Positions 94 to 31,402 of a stretch of 31,402 nt of DNA are shown piece after piece (the stretch's first letter is position 1; the number at the start of each line of letters is the position of its first letter). The notes beneath the pieces were generated by a model. It was not told the DNA's origin. It was given only the letters and a program-made list of their open reading frames with translations, and searched no databases. The DNA is taken from positions 1 through 31,402 of the IMG/VR virus record IMGVR_UViG_3300044844_000923. One strand, 5' to 3'. Made by a program: the position numbers and the translations under genes. The stretch comes from a virus.

Positions 94-170
94 GGATAAC
101 GGTTTGGAGCTAATAAATCGGGCGGTGGAACCTATATAATTCCGCCTGTTTATTAGGTGCGGTTATAAGC
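94..170. repeat. Array element E1 (attC-like inverted repeat)
   Basis: The element starts with GGATAAC (94-100) and ends with GTTATAAGC (162-170). Between them lies a strong imperfect hairpin: CTAATAAA (110-117) pairs with TTTATTAG (149-156), and GGCGG plus GGAA (121-130) pair with TTCCGCC (140-146). There is no T-tract after it, so it is not a standard intrinsic terminator. AAC and GTT at the outer ends of an imperfect hairpin match the general layout of integron attC sites. The left spacer between AAC and the stem is 9 nt and the right one 5 nt. Confidence 0.7.
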
Positions 171-218
171 TGACGGTTATGAATGTTACTATGGAAAATT
201 AATTAAAAAAATATAGAT

Positions 219-398
219 ATGAGTTTAAATACTAAACAAAAAATACAAGCAATTTCAGAATGTCCAGAAATTATGATGGCGGTTAAAATGCTAATATGCA
301 CAATGGAAGATGTGGATTTAAAACATCACATAACATTAGATTATGAATTGAATGGACAAAATTATGAATTAAGATTTACAAAAACCGTTTCAAAGTAG
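219..398 (+). CDS. Small hypothetical protein, array unit c1 (59 aa)
   Basis: The reading frame runs ATG to TAG and encodes 59 residues, starting MSLNTKQKIQ and ending LRFTKTVSK. It is probably soluble, with mixed helix and a C-terminal beta-like stretch (HHITLDYELNGQNYELRFTK). The A-rich leader (AATTAATTAAAAAAATATAG) precedes the ATG, as is usual for this genome. I do not recognise a family. It lies between elements E1 and E2. The sequence just before it, GTTATAAGC at 162, is mirrored after it as GCTTATAAAC at 408, with one extra A. Short ORF with acceptable codon usage; moderate confidence that it is expressed. Confidence 0.6.
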   Translation: MSLNTKQKIQAISECPEIMMAVKMLICTMEDVDLKHHITLDYELNGQNYELRFTKTVSK

Positions 399-407
399 CT
401 ACCGTTT

Positions 408-430
408 GCTTATAAACGCTGTTATAGGTA
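408..430. repeat. Array element E2 (collapsed attC-like junction)
   Basis: E2 is much shorter than its relatives. GCTTATAAAC (408-417) is followed after only three bases by GTTATAGGTA (421-430), with no stem-loop between. The left half is the inverted copy, with one extra A, of the start of unit c1 (162-170). The right half is the start of unit c2. It looks like a site that lost its central hairpin, or a direct junction of two units. A local CTACC/GGTAG pair (400-403 region and 426-430 region) could also form a small hairpin. Confidence 0.55.
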
Positions 431-451
431 GGTTAAATAAATTTTATAGGT

Positions 452-628
452 ATGAATAGAAGAAAAATAAAAAAGGAAATAAAGAAAGTTGATGATTTTA
501 GATTTAGAAAAATAGCTTTAAGTTCATTAAAAATGATTCGTGTTTGGGAAAAACTAAAACATAGAAATTCAAAATCAAACATGAGAATTTTAACGAATAA
601 TTTTTATAGGAACGGAGAATTTATTTAA
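452..628 (+). CDS. Small basic hypothetical protein, array unit c2 (58 aa)
   Basis: ATG to TAA, 58 residues, very basic. The first 20 residues contain about ten Lys or Arg (MNRRKIKKEIKKVDDFRFRK). The rest is rich in Lys, Arg and Asn, with one Trp. The charge suggests nucleic-acid binding or a ribosome- or RNA-associated peptide, but no motif is recognisable. The leader is A/T-rich (GGTTAAATAAATTTTATAGG). The gene is bracketed by GTTATAGGTA at 421-430 and its perfect 10-base inverse TACCTATAAC at 631-640, which makes it a discrete mobile-looking unit of about 220 bp. Confidence 0.6.
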   Translation: MNRRKIKKEIKKVDDFRFRKIALSSLKMIRVWEKLKHRNSKSNMRILTNNFYRNGEFI

Positions 629-630
629 CT

Positions 631-731
631 TACCTATAACGTTTTGCGTATATACGAGGTACGCCTTAACGAAAATTTCAAATTATAAACAAATGCTTGT
701 AGGCGTATCTTGTATATACGCTGTTAGCAGA
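631..731. repeat. Array element E3 (attC-like, 21-bp stem)
   Basis: This is the best-preserved element. TACCTATAAC (631-640) is followed by a 21-bp hairpin whose arms are 646-666 and 701-721. Nineteen pairs are Watson-Crick and two are G-U, around a 34-base A/T-rich loop. It closes with GTTAGCAGA (723-731). The left end is the exact inverse of the start of the preceding unit c2. The right end begins unit c3. No poly-T follows. The arrangement AAC, 5-nt spacer, long stem, 1-nt spacer, GTT resembles an attC site of a Bacteroidota-type integron. Confidence 0.75.
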
Positions 732-750
732 TAGTAAAAAAATACGGATT

Positions 751-894
751 ATGAAAATGGGACTACACGCTGAAATGCCACATGATTACGATTGGAAACC
801 GACTAAAAAATGTAAAAACTGTTGGTGGATAATATTATTAATAGCAGGATTTTTAATATTAGTAAATATTGTAGTATTTTTTTATTTCTGCTAA
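751..894 (+). CDS. Small membrane protein with CxxC, array unit c3 (47 aa)
   Basis: ATG to TAA, 47 residues. The N-terminal 25 residues are polar and contain a K-C-K-N-C pair (residues 21-24). A continuous hydrophobic segment, residues 25-47 (WWIILLIAGFLILVNIVVFF), should span the membrane and ends at Cys47. The expected topology is a small single-pass protein with a cytoplasmic or zinc-ribbon-like N-terminus. Its stop codon lies inside the TCTGCTAAC sequence that begins element E4 and is the exact inverse of this unit's start (GTTAGCAGA at 723-731). Family unknown. Confidence 0.6.
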   Translation: MKMGLHAEMPHDYDWKPTKKCKNCWWIILLIAGFLILVNIVVFFYFC

Positions 895-943
895 CGTTAT
901 CAGGCTTGGCGAAGGGCGATTATTAACCGAAAATGTTACTACG
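887..943. repeat. Array element E4 (degenerate, composite)
   Basis: TCTGCTAAC (887-895) is the perfect 9-base inverse of the start of unit c3. It is followed at once by GTTATCAGG (896-904), then GCTTGGCGAAGGGCG and a later GTTACTACG (935-943). No clear hairpin arm partners exist. As in E2, the AAC half abuts a GTT half directly. The later GTTACTACG resembles GTTACTATGG (186-195) in the leader of c1. It is best read as a collapsed or recombined element. Confidence 0.45.
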
Positions 944-980
944 AAGAACTAAAACAAAAATTTAATAAATAAAAAAAGCG

Positions 981-1265
981 ATGGAAAAAATAGTAGGAAA
1001 TGCAAAGGCACAAGTGGAATTTACAATAAAATTTACTTTAACAAAAGGCGAAGCACAAGCCTTAGATGCCATAGTTGGTTATGGTGTAGAACCTTTTTTG
1101 AAAGTGTTTTATGAACACATGGGAAAGGCATACTTGCAACCACATGAAAATGAAATGCGTAATTTATTTGCAAGGGTTAAAGGTGATTTGCCGAGCGAAG
1201 TGCATAAAATTGAGAAAGCAGAGAAAGCAATAAAGGACGCATTGACTGAATTTAAAAGTGCGTAG
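981..1265 (+). CDS. Hypothetical protein, array unit c4 (94 aa)
   Basis: ATG to TAG, 94 residues. A beta-like N-terminus (QVEFTIKFTLTKGEAQALDAIVGYG) is followed by a predominantly helical region with alternating Lys and Glu near the C-terminus (EVHKIEKAEKAIKDALTEFKSA). I cannot assign a family. The leader is long and A-rich, with the ATG after a run of A and GCG. Unlike its neighbours, the sequence after the gene (GAACATAAC at 1292-1300) is not the inverse of either candidate start in E4 beyond the shared GTTA core. Its left boundary may therefore have been exchanged. Confidence 0.7.
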   Translation: MEKIVGNAKAQVEFTIKFTLTKGEAQALDAIVGYGVEPFLKVFYEHMGKAYLQPHENEMRNLFARVKGDLPSEVHKIEKAEKAIKDALTEFKSA

Positions 1266-1291
1266 GCTTTTTATTTATTAAATATTTAATT

Positions 1292-1351
1292 GAACATAAC
1301 GGCATCGGGCTAAAGTGTCGTTTTAATGCACTTTTAGCCCGTGTTACCACT
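1292..1351. repeat. Array element E5 (attC-like)
   Basis: GAACATAAC (1292-1300) and a 6-nt spacer lead into a hairpin. GGGCTAAAGTG (1307-1317) pairs with CACTTTTAGCCC (1329-1340) with one bulged A and an 11-base loop. A 2-nt spacer and GTTACCACT (1343-1351) follow. The single bulged base in one arm and the longer left spacer are reminiscent of attC sites, whose extrahelical bases define the strand used. There is no U-tract, so termination is unlikely to be its only role. Confidence 0.72.
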
Positions 1352-1394
1352 TCGTTTTGCGTGGGTGGATTATAAACTAAAATTAATAAACAAG

Positions 1395-1661
1395 ATGAAA
1401 AAAAGTACAATAATAAATTATGCAGATGGAGCGACAATAAGGCTTCATAACAAACGGATTTCATTCAAAGAAACCGATAAAAAAACAATGATACGATTTG
1501 ACTTTGCGGATGCAGAAGCCGATAAACCAGCCTGTGGGCATAAATGCCATAGAGGTAAAATAAGAGAAACTCAAATACAAATGAGCGTAGAAGCAATGGA
1601 ATCACTTGTTTATGCTTACATTAATTACAAACGGGAGCGTGCGTTGGCAAAAGCAAAATGA
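1395..1661 (+). CDS. Hypothetical protein with Cys/His cluster, array unit c5 (88 aa)
   Basis: I chose the ATG at 1395, after AATAAACAAG. The frame is open back to 1341, but that part overlaps element E5. The 88 residues begin MKKSTIINYADGATIRLH. A small C-G-H-K-C-H cluster sits at about residues 47-52 and could bind a metal ion. The C-terminal third is helical and basic (YINYKRERALAKAK). No family recognised. The stop codon (1659-1661) abuts AGTGGTAAC (1661-1669), which is the perfect inverse of GTTACCACT (1343-1351) in front of the gene. Confidence 0.72.
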   Translation: MKKSTIINYADGATIRLHNKRISFKETDKKTMIRFDFADAEADKPACGHKCHRGKIRETQIQMSVEAMESLVYAYINYKRERALAKAK

Positions 1662-1717
1662 GTGGTAACAAAAAACTAGGTGCAGTTTTAATTGCACTTA
1701 GTGACTGTTATCGGTAG
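1661..1717. repeat. Array element E6 (attC-like)
   Basis: AGTGGTAAC (1661-1669), an A-rich 5-nt spacer, then the stem ACTAGGTGCA (1675-1684) paired with TGCACTTAGT (1693-1702) with one G-U pair and an 8-base loop, then GACT and GTTATCGGTAG (1707-1717). The left end matches the start of unit c5 in inverted form. The right end starts the last small gene, for which no inverse partner is found downstream, so E6 appears to be the last complete element of the array. Confidence 0.7.
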
Positions 1718-1733
1718 TTAAAAACAAATAGAA

Positions 1734-1832
1734 ATGAAAATATTAATATTTATATCTCACATAATCCTATCTCCAGTTTACCTTTGTTGGTATCTGGAGG
1801 TTATGGATTTCCTGCTACATAGGAAACCATAA
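1734..1832 (+). CDS. Very small hydrophobic peptide, end of array (32 aa)
   Basis: ATG to TAA, 32 residues. A strongly hydrophobic N-terminus (MKILIFISHIILSPVYLCWYLEV) is followed by a short basic tail ending HRKP. It would be a tiny single-pass membrane peptide. The leader (GTTAAAAACAAATAGAA) resembles those of other genes here. The gene sits between E6 and the promoter of the ParB block and has no closing element. Given its length it may be spurious; support is position, leader and composition only. Confidence 0.4.
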   Translation: MKILIFISHIILSPVYLCWYLEVMDFLLHRKP

Positions 1833-1920: not shown

Positions 1921-2526
1921 ATGAGTAAATTTAAAACTGTATTGGTTAAAATATCTTCGATAAAACCAAACGAAAACAATCCCCGAATTATTAAAGACGA
2001 CAAGTTTAAATCACTTGTTCAAAGTGTAACTGACTTTCCAGAAATGCTAGAAATCCGCCCTATTGTTGTAAACGAGGACGGAATCATTATTGGTGGCAAT
2101 ATGCGGTACCGTGCTTGCCTCGAGGCAGGAATAACTGAGGTGCCAGTAATCAAATTAGTTGGTATGTCGCAAGAGAAACAAAATGAGTTTCTGATTAAGG
2201 ACAATGTTGCAGGAGGTGAATGGGATTGGGATGCATTGGCAAATAATTGGGATAGTGAAGATCTGAAAGATTGGGGATTGCAGGTATGGCAAACGAACCT
2301 GGAGGATATGAATTTTGATTCAACTGCCAAAGCTACAAAAGAGGAAAAGGAAAAGGATAATAGTCCCAGAACTACAGACGACAACTACTCCACATTCGAA
2401 CTGATTATGTTACACGAAAACAAATTGGATTTACTCGACACTTTAAATAAAGTTAAAAACGAATTCCTATTTGAAAAGCAGGAAGATGCATTGATGGAAA
2501 TATTAAGAGTTTACAATAAAAAATAA
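1921..2526 (+). CDS. ParB-fold (ParB/Srx) protein
   Basis: The N-terminal 80-90 residues have the ParB/sulfiredoxin layout: V-x-I-S-S-I-K-P-N-x-x-N-P-R (residues 9-22), then I-I-I-G-G-N-M-R-Y-R-A-C at 55-66, the conserved G-x-x-R-x-x-A core. The C-terminal part is acidic and helical. No ParA or centromere-like repeat accompanies it, so chromosome partition is unlikely. Phage ParB-fold proteins often sit next to terminase or DNA-modification genes and may be nucleases, NTP-binding regulators or modification partners. It is the first gene of the block behind the promoter at 1871 and ends two bases before the cupin gene, which suggests co-translation. Confidence 0.75.
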   Translation: MSKFKTVLVKISSIKPNENNPRIIKDDKFKSLVQSVTDFPEMLEIRPIVVNEDGIIIGGNMRYRACLEAGITEVPVIKLVGMSQEKQNEFLIKDNVAGGEWDWDALANNWDSEDLKDWGLQVWQTNLEDMNFDSTAKATKEEKEKDNSPRTTDDNYSTFELIMLHENKLDLLDTLNKVKNEFLFEKQEDALMEILRVYNKK

Positions 2527-13978: not shown

Positions 13979-14563
13979 TCATAAAAAGTATTTTTTGTAA
14001 AGGGATAAATTTGTTTGGTTGTATTTTGTAACGCACTTGGCGTTATCACTCCAACCGTCCAACTGATAAGCGAAATGCTTTTTAGAAATATAAACGTTTA
14101 AGTTTTTTCCTATGTAGTGGTCTATGGGTTCCGTACCATTGTAATCAATTAGAGTTTGATAAGCCCTTTCGTTTACGATATAAAAATGGCAGCCTGCAAA
14201 CTTTTGTATTTTGTTCCAGTATTTATCATCTGTATCAATTACTTTTCCAGAATAGCAGCCAAAAATTAAAACATCAAAATCACTCGGTAAATTTTCCAGT
14301 AATTCATCAAAGTACGGCTTTGAATTTTCTCGCAAACAGATATCATCTTCAATAATTAGAATGTTTTTTTGTAGTGTTTCACTTGCAAACCTAATACATT
14401 TTTTATGGCTTTCTCTAATTGCCAAGGTTGTATTTTCTAAATTGTTTACTGCTTTACAAATTACAGTTTTAAATTCACCAAAAAATTTAGTCAGTTCTTT
14501 TCTGGAATGCTCTAAACGTTCTGTTCGTTTAGGAAGATTTATTAAGATTGAATTTATTTGCAT
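13979..14563 (-). CDS. Glycosyltransferase family 25-like protein
   Basis: 194 residues on the minus strand. M-Q-I-N-S-I-L-I-N-L-P-K-R-T-E-R-L (residues 1-17) and I-L-I-I-E-D-D-I (69-75) match the GT25 pattern, in which the E-D-D group binds the divalent metal and sugar nucleotide. L-D-G-W-S-D-N-A near the C-terminus could hold further acceptor-site residues. GT25 enzymes act on lipopolysaccharide or proteins. It overlaps the preceding minus-strand gene by 35 bases, a sign of co-transcription. Phage use could be modification of virion proteins, phage DNA or host surface sugars. Confidence 0.7.
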   Translation of the reverse strand: MQINSILINLPKRTERLEHSRKELTKFFGEFKTVICKAVNNLENTTLAIRESHKKCIRFASETLQKNILIIEDDICLRENSKPYFDELLENLPSDFDVLIFGCYSGKVIDTDDKYWNKIQKFAGCHFYIVNERAYQTLIDYNGTEPIDHYIGKNLNVYISKKHFAYQLDGWSDNAKCVTKYNQTNLSLYKKYFL

Positions 14564-15233
14564 TGAATTTTTTATTAAATACTTTGGCTTGTGCCATAGT
14601 TAGTTGGTAATTAGTTTCAGAATCCACTGTTTTTAGCGTATTGCTGCCATTGTCAACGTGATTTACTATTGAGGTAGGTATAAGTAGGTGCTCCACATTA
14701 ATAGCCTTTAACTGTTCACGATATGCATCATCGGAACACCAAAAAGTACAACAATCGTCAAGGCCTCCGAGTTTATCCCAAAGCTTGCGAGTAAAAACGA
14801 TTGCCCAACCGGATAACTCTTTTGCTATTCCGTAACCGACAACTGGCTCAGTAGTTCTAAACCATTGCCTTTGACTTTGTGAGGTATGGCTGATAGGGGA
14901 GCAGGAAAATAGATCTTGGCTTTGGTAGTGTTTTAGGATTTCTTCAAACCAGTTTTCATCAAAAATAACATCATTATTAAACACTCCGATTAATTCATTT
15001 TTGTATTCACTAATACCAACGTTTGCAAAACCATTGTAGTTAAATGGCTTATCCAAATGAATTGTACTTACGCAATAAAATTGATTATAGAAAACGCCTT
15101 TTTGGCTTTCAACTACAATTATTTTAAAGTTTTCAGAACCTTTAGAATTCAATAAGCTATTCAAACAATTAGCAGTTAGTTGGTAGTGCTTGTCAGTTTT
15201 AGCATAGGATAAAATTACAATGTCTATTTTCAT
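14529..15233 (-). CDS. Glycosyltransferase family 2-like protein
   Basis: 234 residues on the minus strand. The GT-A pattern is I-V-I-L-S-Y (residues 5-10), N-Y-N-G-F-A-N-V-G-I (65-74), and the metal-binding V-F-N-N-D-V-I-F-D (84-92, Asn-Asn-Asp in place of D-x-D). A later G-Y-G-I-A-K-E-L-S-G-W-A-I-V-F-T-R-K-L-W-D-K-L-G-G-L-D fits the acceptor-side loop, with W-C-S-D-D-A-Y as the catalytic-base-like ED/DD. It overlaps both neighbours (4 bases with the upstream gene), giving a three-gene minus-strand operon. Confidence 0.8.
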   Translation of the reverse strand: MKIDIVILSYAKTDKHYQLTANCLNSLLNSKGSENFKIIVVESQKGVFYNQFYCVSTIHLDKPFNYNGFANVGISEYKNELIGVFNNDVIFDENWFEEILKHYQSQDLFSCSPISHTSQSQRQWFRTTEPVVGYGIAKELSGWAIVFTRKLWDKLGGLDDCCTFWCSDDAYREQLKAINVEHLLIPTSIVNHVDNGSNTLKTVDSETNYQLTMAQAKVFNKKFNANKFNLNKSS

Positions 15234-15820
15234 CTTCTTTTGTTTTTTAAGTGTTGTTGGGTTTCTGTAGTGGCTTGATGATAATTGTAGTAGTACAATG
15301 TTTCGCTTAAATTTAATTCTGTTTTGATTAATGGCGCCAATCGTTTACTGTAATCCGAATCCTCACCATAAAGAATATCTTTGTACTTAACCTGGAGTGC
15401 CAGTTCTCGTTTAACACACATTATGTGGTTTGGCAGCCTAAAATATCCGTCTGCAGTATTGAAGTCTATTGAATTTGAGATACTATAATGGCAGGGTTTG
15501 TACGGACCATCATTTAGGGAAACGTCCACAATAAAATTAATCACATCAACTCTATTTTCGTCAATGGCCTTAACTATTGCAGAAACATAATTTAGGCTTA
15601 TTTTATCATCATCATCAATAAAAGTTATGTAGTCACCTGCAGCAATTTCGACTAAATCATTCCTTTTTGTTCCTAGCATACGCTTTTTGTTGTCGTACAA
15701 ATAAAGCACCTCAACATCTTCTATCCCCTCTACTTGTCGATTTAATTCGTTTAATAATTCAATGGCTTTACCGTTGACAATTCTGGAGTGAACTCCGCAA
15801 ACTAAGATTGATAATTTCAT
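15230..15820 (-). CDS. Glycosyltransferase family 2-like protein (short)
   Basis: 196 residues on the minus strand. M-K-L-S-I-L-V-C-G-V-H-S-R is the N-terminal nucleotide-binding strand. L-G-T-K-R-N-D-L-V-E-I-A-A-G-D-Y-I-T-F-I-D-D-D-D (residues 49-72) contains the D-x-D-like group. The later L-Y-G-E-D-S-D-Y-S fits the catalytic ED motif. It is short for a GT2 enzyme but the core is complete. It is the first gene of the minus-strand operon, with a TAnnTTTG element only five bases before the ATG. Confidence 0.8.
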   Translation of the reverse strand: MKLSILVCGVHSRIVNGKAIELLNELNRQVEGIEDVEVLYLYDNKKRMLGTKRNDLVEIAAGDYITFIDDDDKISLNYVSAIVKAIDENRVDVINFIVDVSLNDGPYKPCHYSISNSIDFNTADGYFRLPNHIMCVKRELALQVKYKDILYGEDSDYSKRLAPLIKTELNLSETLYYYNYHQATTETQQHLKNKRR

Positions 15821-30988: not shown

Positions 30989-31270
30989 ATGCAGACAACA
31001 CTATTCGAAATCCCTGCAATACAGAAACCGTTTAAACATAAAGCCAGAGGCAATATTTACACGGATAAAATTTGGAATGAGTTAGATATTCATACCAAAA
31101 TAAATATCAAAGTGGCTTATGGGTACGGTGACGACTTGAAACCAAACTACCTAATCATTAACCAAGTATTTGAATGCGGATTGGATATGTACTGCCTAAC
31201 AAATAAAGAGTCAAAACATAAGGGGTTTATGTGTTACTGGGATGCCCCTCCAGAAATCAAACCAATATGA
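30989..31270 (+). CDS. Hypothetical protein at the left border of the cassette-like array (93 aa)
   Basis: 93 residues. M-Q-T-T-L-F-E-I-P-A-I-Q-K-P-F-K-H-K-A-R-G-N-I-Y-T-D-K is a start seen in small phage proteins that contain L-F-E-I. The middle is hydrophobic and aromatic, and the end is C-Y-W-D-A-P-P-E-I-K-P-I. It lies one base after the preceding gene and is followed by element E1 of the array. It is not itself a complete cassette unit because no GTTATCC-type partner lies in front of it. Confidence 0.7.
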   Translation: MQTTLFEIPAIQKPFKHKARGNIYTDKIWNELDIHTKINIKVAYGYGDDLKPNYLIINQVFECGLDMYCLTNKESKHKGFMCYWDAPPEIKPI

Positions 31271-31402
31271 AATTACGGATAACGGTTTGGAGCTAATAAA
31301 TCGGGCGGTGGAACCTATATAATTCCGCCTGTTTATTAGGTGCTGTTATAAGCTGACGGTTATGAATGTTACTATGGAAAATTAATTAAAAAAATATAGA
31401 TA
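31184..31402. repeat. Terminal overlap, right copy (circular genome)
   Basis: This is the right-hand copy of bases 1-219. It contains the end of the 93-residue gene at 30989 and the whole of array element E1. Its last base is the A of the start codon of the first small array gene. At the variable base this copy has T, giving GCTGTTAT, which agrees better with the related elements (GCTGTTA) than the G of the left copy. Confidence 0.9.

Follow-up and report, generated by a model that had tools for sequence, protein, structure and literature searches.

The window, by which we mean the whole stretch of 31,402 nucleotides analysed here, is an IMG/VR virus record of 31.4 kb encoding terminase, portal, capsid, tape-measure, Erf, Gam and DnaB genes. 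Its positions 1-219 recur at 31184-31402 with a single difference by eye, a repeat that points to a complete circular genome of about 31.2 kb. Window position 157, in the first element (E1), and position 31340, in its overlap copy, differ (GCGGTTA versus GCTGTTA), through strain variation or assembly error. Positions 97-1710 hold an array of small plus-strand genes lying between AAC...GTT elements. No integrase or recombinase gene was found across the whole window, which agrees with an earlier sequence-only reading of this DNA in calling the phage genome integrase-less, and an Rfam scan of the window gave no matches. Elsewhere, glycosyltransferase-like sequence at 14529-15820 extends over two adjacent minus-strand ORFs that correspond to separate parts of phrog_8858, possibly a broken gene. 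The features of the array and its surroundings are as follows.

97-165, plus strand: E1, the array's first site, with TAAC at 97-100, a hairpin and GTTA at 162-165.
219-398, plus strand: cassette 1 gene, 59 aa; cassette ends unpaired (2/11).
401-424, plus strand: E2, a degenerate site remnant with a small hairpin and GTTA at 421-424; fold z -0.4, weak covariance-model score of 7.7 bits.
421-640, plus strand: cassette 2 body with a 58 aa gene (452-628); start and end complementary at 10 of 11 scored positions.
637-726, plus strand: E3, the best-preserved site, TAACGTTTTGCGTATATAC...GTATATACGCTGTTA; covariance model 56.6 bits, E 4e-11; DNA fold z -5.0.
723-895, plus strand: cassette 3 body with a 47 aa gene (751-894); ends complementary (8/11).
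892-938, plus strand: E4, a left half-site whose right hairpin arm is missing; half match to the covariance model, fold z +1.5.
981-1265, plus strand: cassette 4 gene, 94 aa, with four distant relatives in viral contigs; ends unpaired (3/11).
1297-1346, plus strand: E5, TAACGGCATCGGGCTAAA...TTTTAGCCCGTGTTA; covariance model 29.0 bits, E 3e-4; fold z -3.4.
1343-1669, plus strand: cassette 5 body with an 88 aa gene (1395-1661); ends complementary (8/11).
1666-1710, plus strand: E6, the resident right-end site, common to the related contigs L004 and L005, with the divergence boundary at its TAAC.
1734-1820, plus strand: small ORF of the fixed right flank, not a cassette; kept in L004, partly in L003.
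1921-2526, plus strand: ParB-like gene (PF02195, E 4e-7), the first conserved gene to the right of the array, 99-100% identical in L002-L005.
31184-31402, no strand: end repeat of 1-219, giving a second reading of E1 with GCTGTTA intact.

The sequence-only reading had described six tiny genes separated by such elements, four of them with stem-loops. The elements are as it described, while the sixth gene (1734-1820) belongs to the fixed flank, leaving five cassettes in the array. Against shuffled DNA, E1, E3, E5 and E6 form more stable folds (z -3.6, -5.0, -3.4 and -2.5), whereas E2 and E4 do not, and these two look like decayed or truncated sites. The covariance model R1 was built from 60 related elements, an alignment partly selected for pairing, which inflates its covariation counts. 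It matches E1 at 88-174 (29.5 bits, E 3e-4) and the overlap copy at 31271-31357 (34.2 bits). E6 scores weakly (14.9 bits) and has the spacer AAAAA, unlike the family. When 60 diverse elements are aligned without gaps, the spacers measure 5 nt (GTTTT) on the left and 1 nt (T) on the right, so the 4-nt excess on the left that was first noticed in the window is a family-wide feature.

The array is replaced as whole units between closely related phages. Three other viral contigs (L003, L004 and L005) are near-copies of the window phage, with flanks 94-97% identical. In L004 and L005 the left-hand identity runs up to TAACG in E1, and the right-hand identity resumes at the TAAC of E6, or slightly further right in L003. 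Between these boundary sites the window shares no cassette with any of the three; the units are entirely different. Relatives with unchanged units throughout, named beforehand as the outcome that would speak against mobility, are thus not what we see here, nor in the cultured isolates described below, which gain units. When other ParB-related phages were searched with R1, sites were found in L003-L005 and the window only (L005 by eye). The L004 record (30.4 kb) also has no integrase, and the pattern predicted for an empty site, GATAACAAAAAACTAGGTGC, was not found among the viral contigs. In two further pairs of viral loci, L311/L312 and L314/L317, the integrase regions are 98-99% identical and the upstream arrays differ.

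The ends of the cassettes carry a second kind of evidence. In an integron, the circular cassette joins its end and its start into one site, so each cassette end should pair with the other end of its own cassette rather than with the adjoining unit beyond the hairpin. The data follow this pattern: reverse complementarity over 15 nt links the two ends of one cassette, but not the two flanks of one junction. Over 16 positions, same-cassette ends match at 8.8, compared with 5.5 for junction flanks and 5.2 for random pairs. Of the units in an independent set, 49% had 8 or more of 11 positions paired, against 1.5% and 2.1% in controls. The pairing stops sharply at position 15, giving an outer stem of 15 nt, and position 11 is a fixed G.T in 48 of 57 cases. 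In the window, cassettes 2, 3 and 5 have paired ends, and none of 430 control pairs from the rest of the window reaches 8. Pairing within the cassette and not across the junction is the mark that a circular intermediate leaves. Partial pairing (7/11) is also seen between the two outer flanks of the array, as expected if one resident site was invaded. Against an integron-like reading, two of the five window cassettes have no paired ends, and two elements are decayed; cassette 1 is a decayed or composite unit.

The position of the crossover can be read from segments shared between unrelated phages, 10 of 25 of which start within 12 nt of TAAC (6% expected). Twelve end at TAAC and none at GTTA, although a few start at GTTA. 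In phage orientation, then, a moving unit usually has its hairpin on the 5' side of its gene, with the crossover at TAAC|, which on the other strand is the integron position beside GTT. At E1 the crossover would fall at TAAC|G, after position 100. In four loci (L274 4385-4900, L301 4238-4900, L370 and L371, upstream of the integrase), some cassette ORFs start in the hairpin loop and appear to read through the right arm and the GTTA box, placing the recombination site inside coding sequence.

Although the window has no recombinase, related arrays sit beside one. Among 37 array-bearing viral records, 10 encode a tyrosine recombinase, in seven cases downstream of the array and on the same strand. 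We then chose 80 viral loci solely by an IntI-related integrase and scanned them with R1, which returned 148 sites in 46 of 79 loci; all were on the recombinase strand and 147 lay upstream of the recombinase. After the last cassette, just before the integrase gene, about 20 of 21 loci (by eye) carry a conserved TAAC|TATTATATA, which from its sequence and position is a putative attI-like site. The integrases score 145-171 bits against TIGR02249, under its cut-off of 265, with matches at positions ~2-180 and 238-315; the middle part of the model, which holds the IntI-specific domain, is missing from them. In a tree nearly all of them fall into one clade, whose neighbours are IntI and IntI-like proteins of bacteria and which stands apart from the sampled Xer proteins. 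An AlphaFold model of a phage integrase (pLDDT 84) had IntI4 as its best PDB structure match, followed by XerA, while the best PDB sequence match was P. abyssi XerA. In Polaribacter phage Leef_1 (4566-5927), tiny hypothetical genes lie directly upstream of the integrase with no R1 site, and this run may be another divergent version of the system.

Insertion beside an integrase can be followed in cultured isolates. The Polaribacter phages Freya_1-8 encode a relative of the phage integrase, and their genome lengths step from 43,978 to 48,018. Freya_5, 6 and 8 are 99.99% identical over ~43 kb, and where Freya_1 and Freya_2 were compared with them, the match is 100% except around the insert boundary. 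The differences consist of inserts only, which end exactly at AA|CACCCCTATAACAAC (AA|CACCCC; also given as AAC|ACCCC) beside the integrase. The inserts of Freya_1, 2, 5 and 6 are nested in that order, with Freya_8 branching from Freya_2, and several of the cassettes also follow the end-pairing rule. The Freya integrase lies on a long branch with 35% identity to the main phage clade, and the Freya sites are barely detected by R1. The system is therefore related but not identical, and it lends close support to, rather than proof of, the reading of the window. The paper describing the Freya phages mentions no integrons, cassettes or insertions (PMC8776804).

Sites of this family are widespread but diverse in sequence. 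A simple element finder recovered 220 elements in the fetched loci and 5 in shuffled sequence. A strict sequence pattern picked out 65 viral contigs and 48 prokaryotic ones, mostly of Bacteroidota with some archaea, and just 4 of 297 Bacteroidota genomes, a count by which this pattern understates prevalence; R1 reveals arrays of many sites. Single elements used as BLAST queries had no matches in isolate phages or plasmids, because the sites are too diverse. Given this distribution and the flavobacterial isolates, the host of the window phage is probably a member of Bacteroidota. Most Bacteroidota and archaeal genomes with related sites also encode IntI-like recombinases. Bacterial cases with both on one contig are few (G002, G010, G011 and G014), and we therefore make no claim that the IntI-like genes drive the bacterial arrays. 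In these cases (G002:C13, G010:C282, G011:C2 and G014:C47) the IntI-like gene lies near the sites and points toward the array, opposite to the phages. R1 found no sites on G003:C4, the contig with the sole true IntI, or in the class 1 integron plasmid R388.

As for the cargo, of 80 cassette proteins almost none had a Pfam match; a DNA methylase, an exoribonuclease and a PARP-like domain occurred once each. No relatives of cassette 5 were found in viral contigs. The cassettes would form a quickly exchanged set of small genes, mostly of no assigned function, and some may act against hosts or rival phages.

We consider that the array very probably consists of integron-like cassettes placed by site-specific recombination, a viral variant whose integrase and attI-like site are found in larger phages. 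Exact boundaries, turnover of units, paired ends, linkage to an integrase and attI-like site, and stepwise insertion in isolates are all observed, and the cassette array with integron geometry proposed from the window is borne out by the replacement of units between the same boundary sites. Three other explanations were weighed. It is unlikely that the array is a fragment of a classical bacterial integron (CALIN) taken from the host and moved by host IntI, with no phage-specific system involved. Phage CALINs do exist (PMC9892861), related sites are present in Bacteroidota and archaeal genomes, most of them with IntI-like recombinases, and phage P12002L, the source of an attC usable by IntI1 (Qi et al.), holds sites of the window family. 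However, genes run in one direction relative to the site in phage arrays (71 to 3, and 80 to 4 in a second phage set) and the opposite way in bacterial and archaeal arrays (27 to 3). The integrase beside the phage arrays forms a separate phage clade, and RYYYAAC and GTTRRRY are both fitted by just 18 of 216 sites, the TAAC/GTTA core being kept.

It is very improbable that the elements are ordinary terminators or RNA stem-loops among accessory genes of a hypervariable region subject to homologous or illegitimate exchange. They do form hairpins between co-directional genes, the coding strand folds somewhat better, and variability is common in phage accessory regions. Yet no conserved T-tract follows the hairpin in the 60-element alignment, so that the ordinary terminators raised by the sequence-only reading itself do not fit. 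Exchange also breaks precisely at TAAC|, cassette ends pair mutually and not across the hairpin junction, and the sites precede an integrase, with an attI-like sequence at their end. Hairpin-ended non-autonomous transposons of IS200/IS605 or MITE type, inserted next to each other, would account for units that are short and have hairpins and terminal inverted repeats, but are scarcely credible, since the units follow one another head to tail on a single strand and share their junction sites, the inverted repeats vary between units and match within a unit only, and the linked enzyme is an IntI-type tyrosine recombinase. Both the terminator and transposon readings were dropped on the boundary and pairing data.

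Under the integron-like reading, each unit would run from TAAC| to TAAC| and comprise hairpin, GTTA, gene and TAAC. In an excised circle 15 nt of pairing would join the two ends, which together with the inner hairpin could fold into a single-strand recombination site made of an outer stem, a 5/1 nt spacer and an inner stem. An IntI-related tyrosine recombinase would insert this circle into a resident site, at its TAAC, and the right half of that site would stay in place. In larger phages the recombinase gene would be the one just downstream of the putative attI-like TAAC|TATTATATA, and insertion beside the integrase is demonstrated by the isolate comparison in the related Freya phages. Because the window phage has no recombinase, its array would depend on supply in trans or be the leftover of a loss. 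The enzyme acting on it may come from a co-infecting phage of the integrase type or from the host. The sequence-only reading had assigned this role to a host integrase in trans; the host need not be the only source, since larger phages that carry an integrase and attI-like site may also provide it.

More broadly, it seems likely that an integron class of their own exists in phages, chiefly Bacteroidota phages, with a phage-specific IntI-like integrase clade, an attI of its own and a separate pool of reversed-gene cassettes moving between phages, including into small ones that have no integrase gene and draw on the enzyme in trans. Among the known means by which bacteria capture gene cassettes, integrons are the main one, and the phage cases described until now were captured pieces. 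If this is true, a viral integrase and attI would explain the exchange of many tiny phage genes. The Freya isolates make the idea testable at once, being closely matched cultured phages with differing cassette numbers and a known site beside a known integrase. The open-access literature gave no account of complete phage-encoded systems of this kind (subscription papers and preprints lay outside the scope).

Phage-borne arrays as such are not new, contrary to the sequence-only reading, which knew of none. Qi et al. (2023) reported attC clusters without integrase in virulent phages, some of which IntI1 uses, including one from Polaribacter phage P12002L (PMC9892861). We found five candidate sites of the window family in P12002L, three above and two below E 0.05. 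Like these phage CALINs, the window has at least two attC-like sites (four folded ones) and no integrase, and the P12002L candidates have their genes in the same orientation as the window family; the CALINs differ in having been described without a phage integrase clade, attI-like site, paired ends or turnover between relatives. Archaeal integrons (PMC9668308) are similar in that the related site type occurs in Methanophagales and other MAGs, but the genes of the MAG arrays have the usual orientation. With XerA, XerC and XerD the phage integrases share the fold and catalytic motif, whereas the sampled Xer proteins form a separate clade. The closest comparison is with the IntI/attI/attC integrons. 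Both have head-to-tail cassettes of small genes, imperfect hairpin sites bounded by AAC/GTT with the crossover at that box, an insertion site beside the integrase (in related phages and the Freya isolates, not in the window), an integrase transcribed away from the array with sites read in the attC orientation, and cassettes that are gained or lost whole at the boundaries of the sites. The phage system differs in its integrase, which has no IntI-specific domain, in its outer stem of 15 nt instead of 7 and spacers of 5 and 1 nt, in its genes, which run opposite to the usual attC direction so that the attC is not at the gene 3' end, and in its sites, most of which do not fit the R boxes RYYYAAC/GTTRRRY. 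Since the R boxes, the IntI-specific domain and the gene direction all fail the classical definition, this is a variant and not a plain member, and the window array is best classed as a phage integron variant in its integrase-less form.
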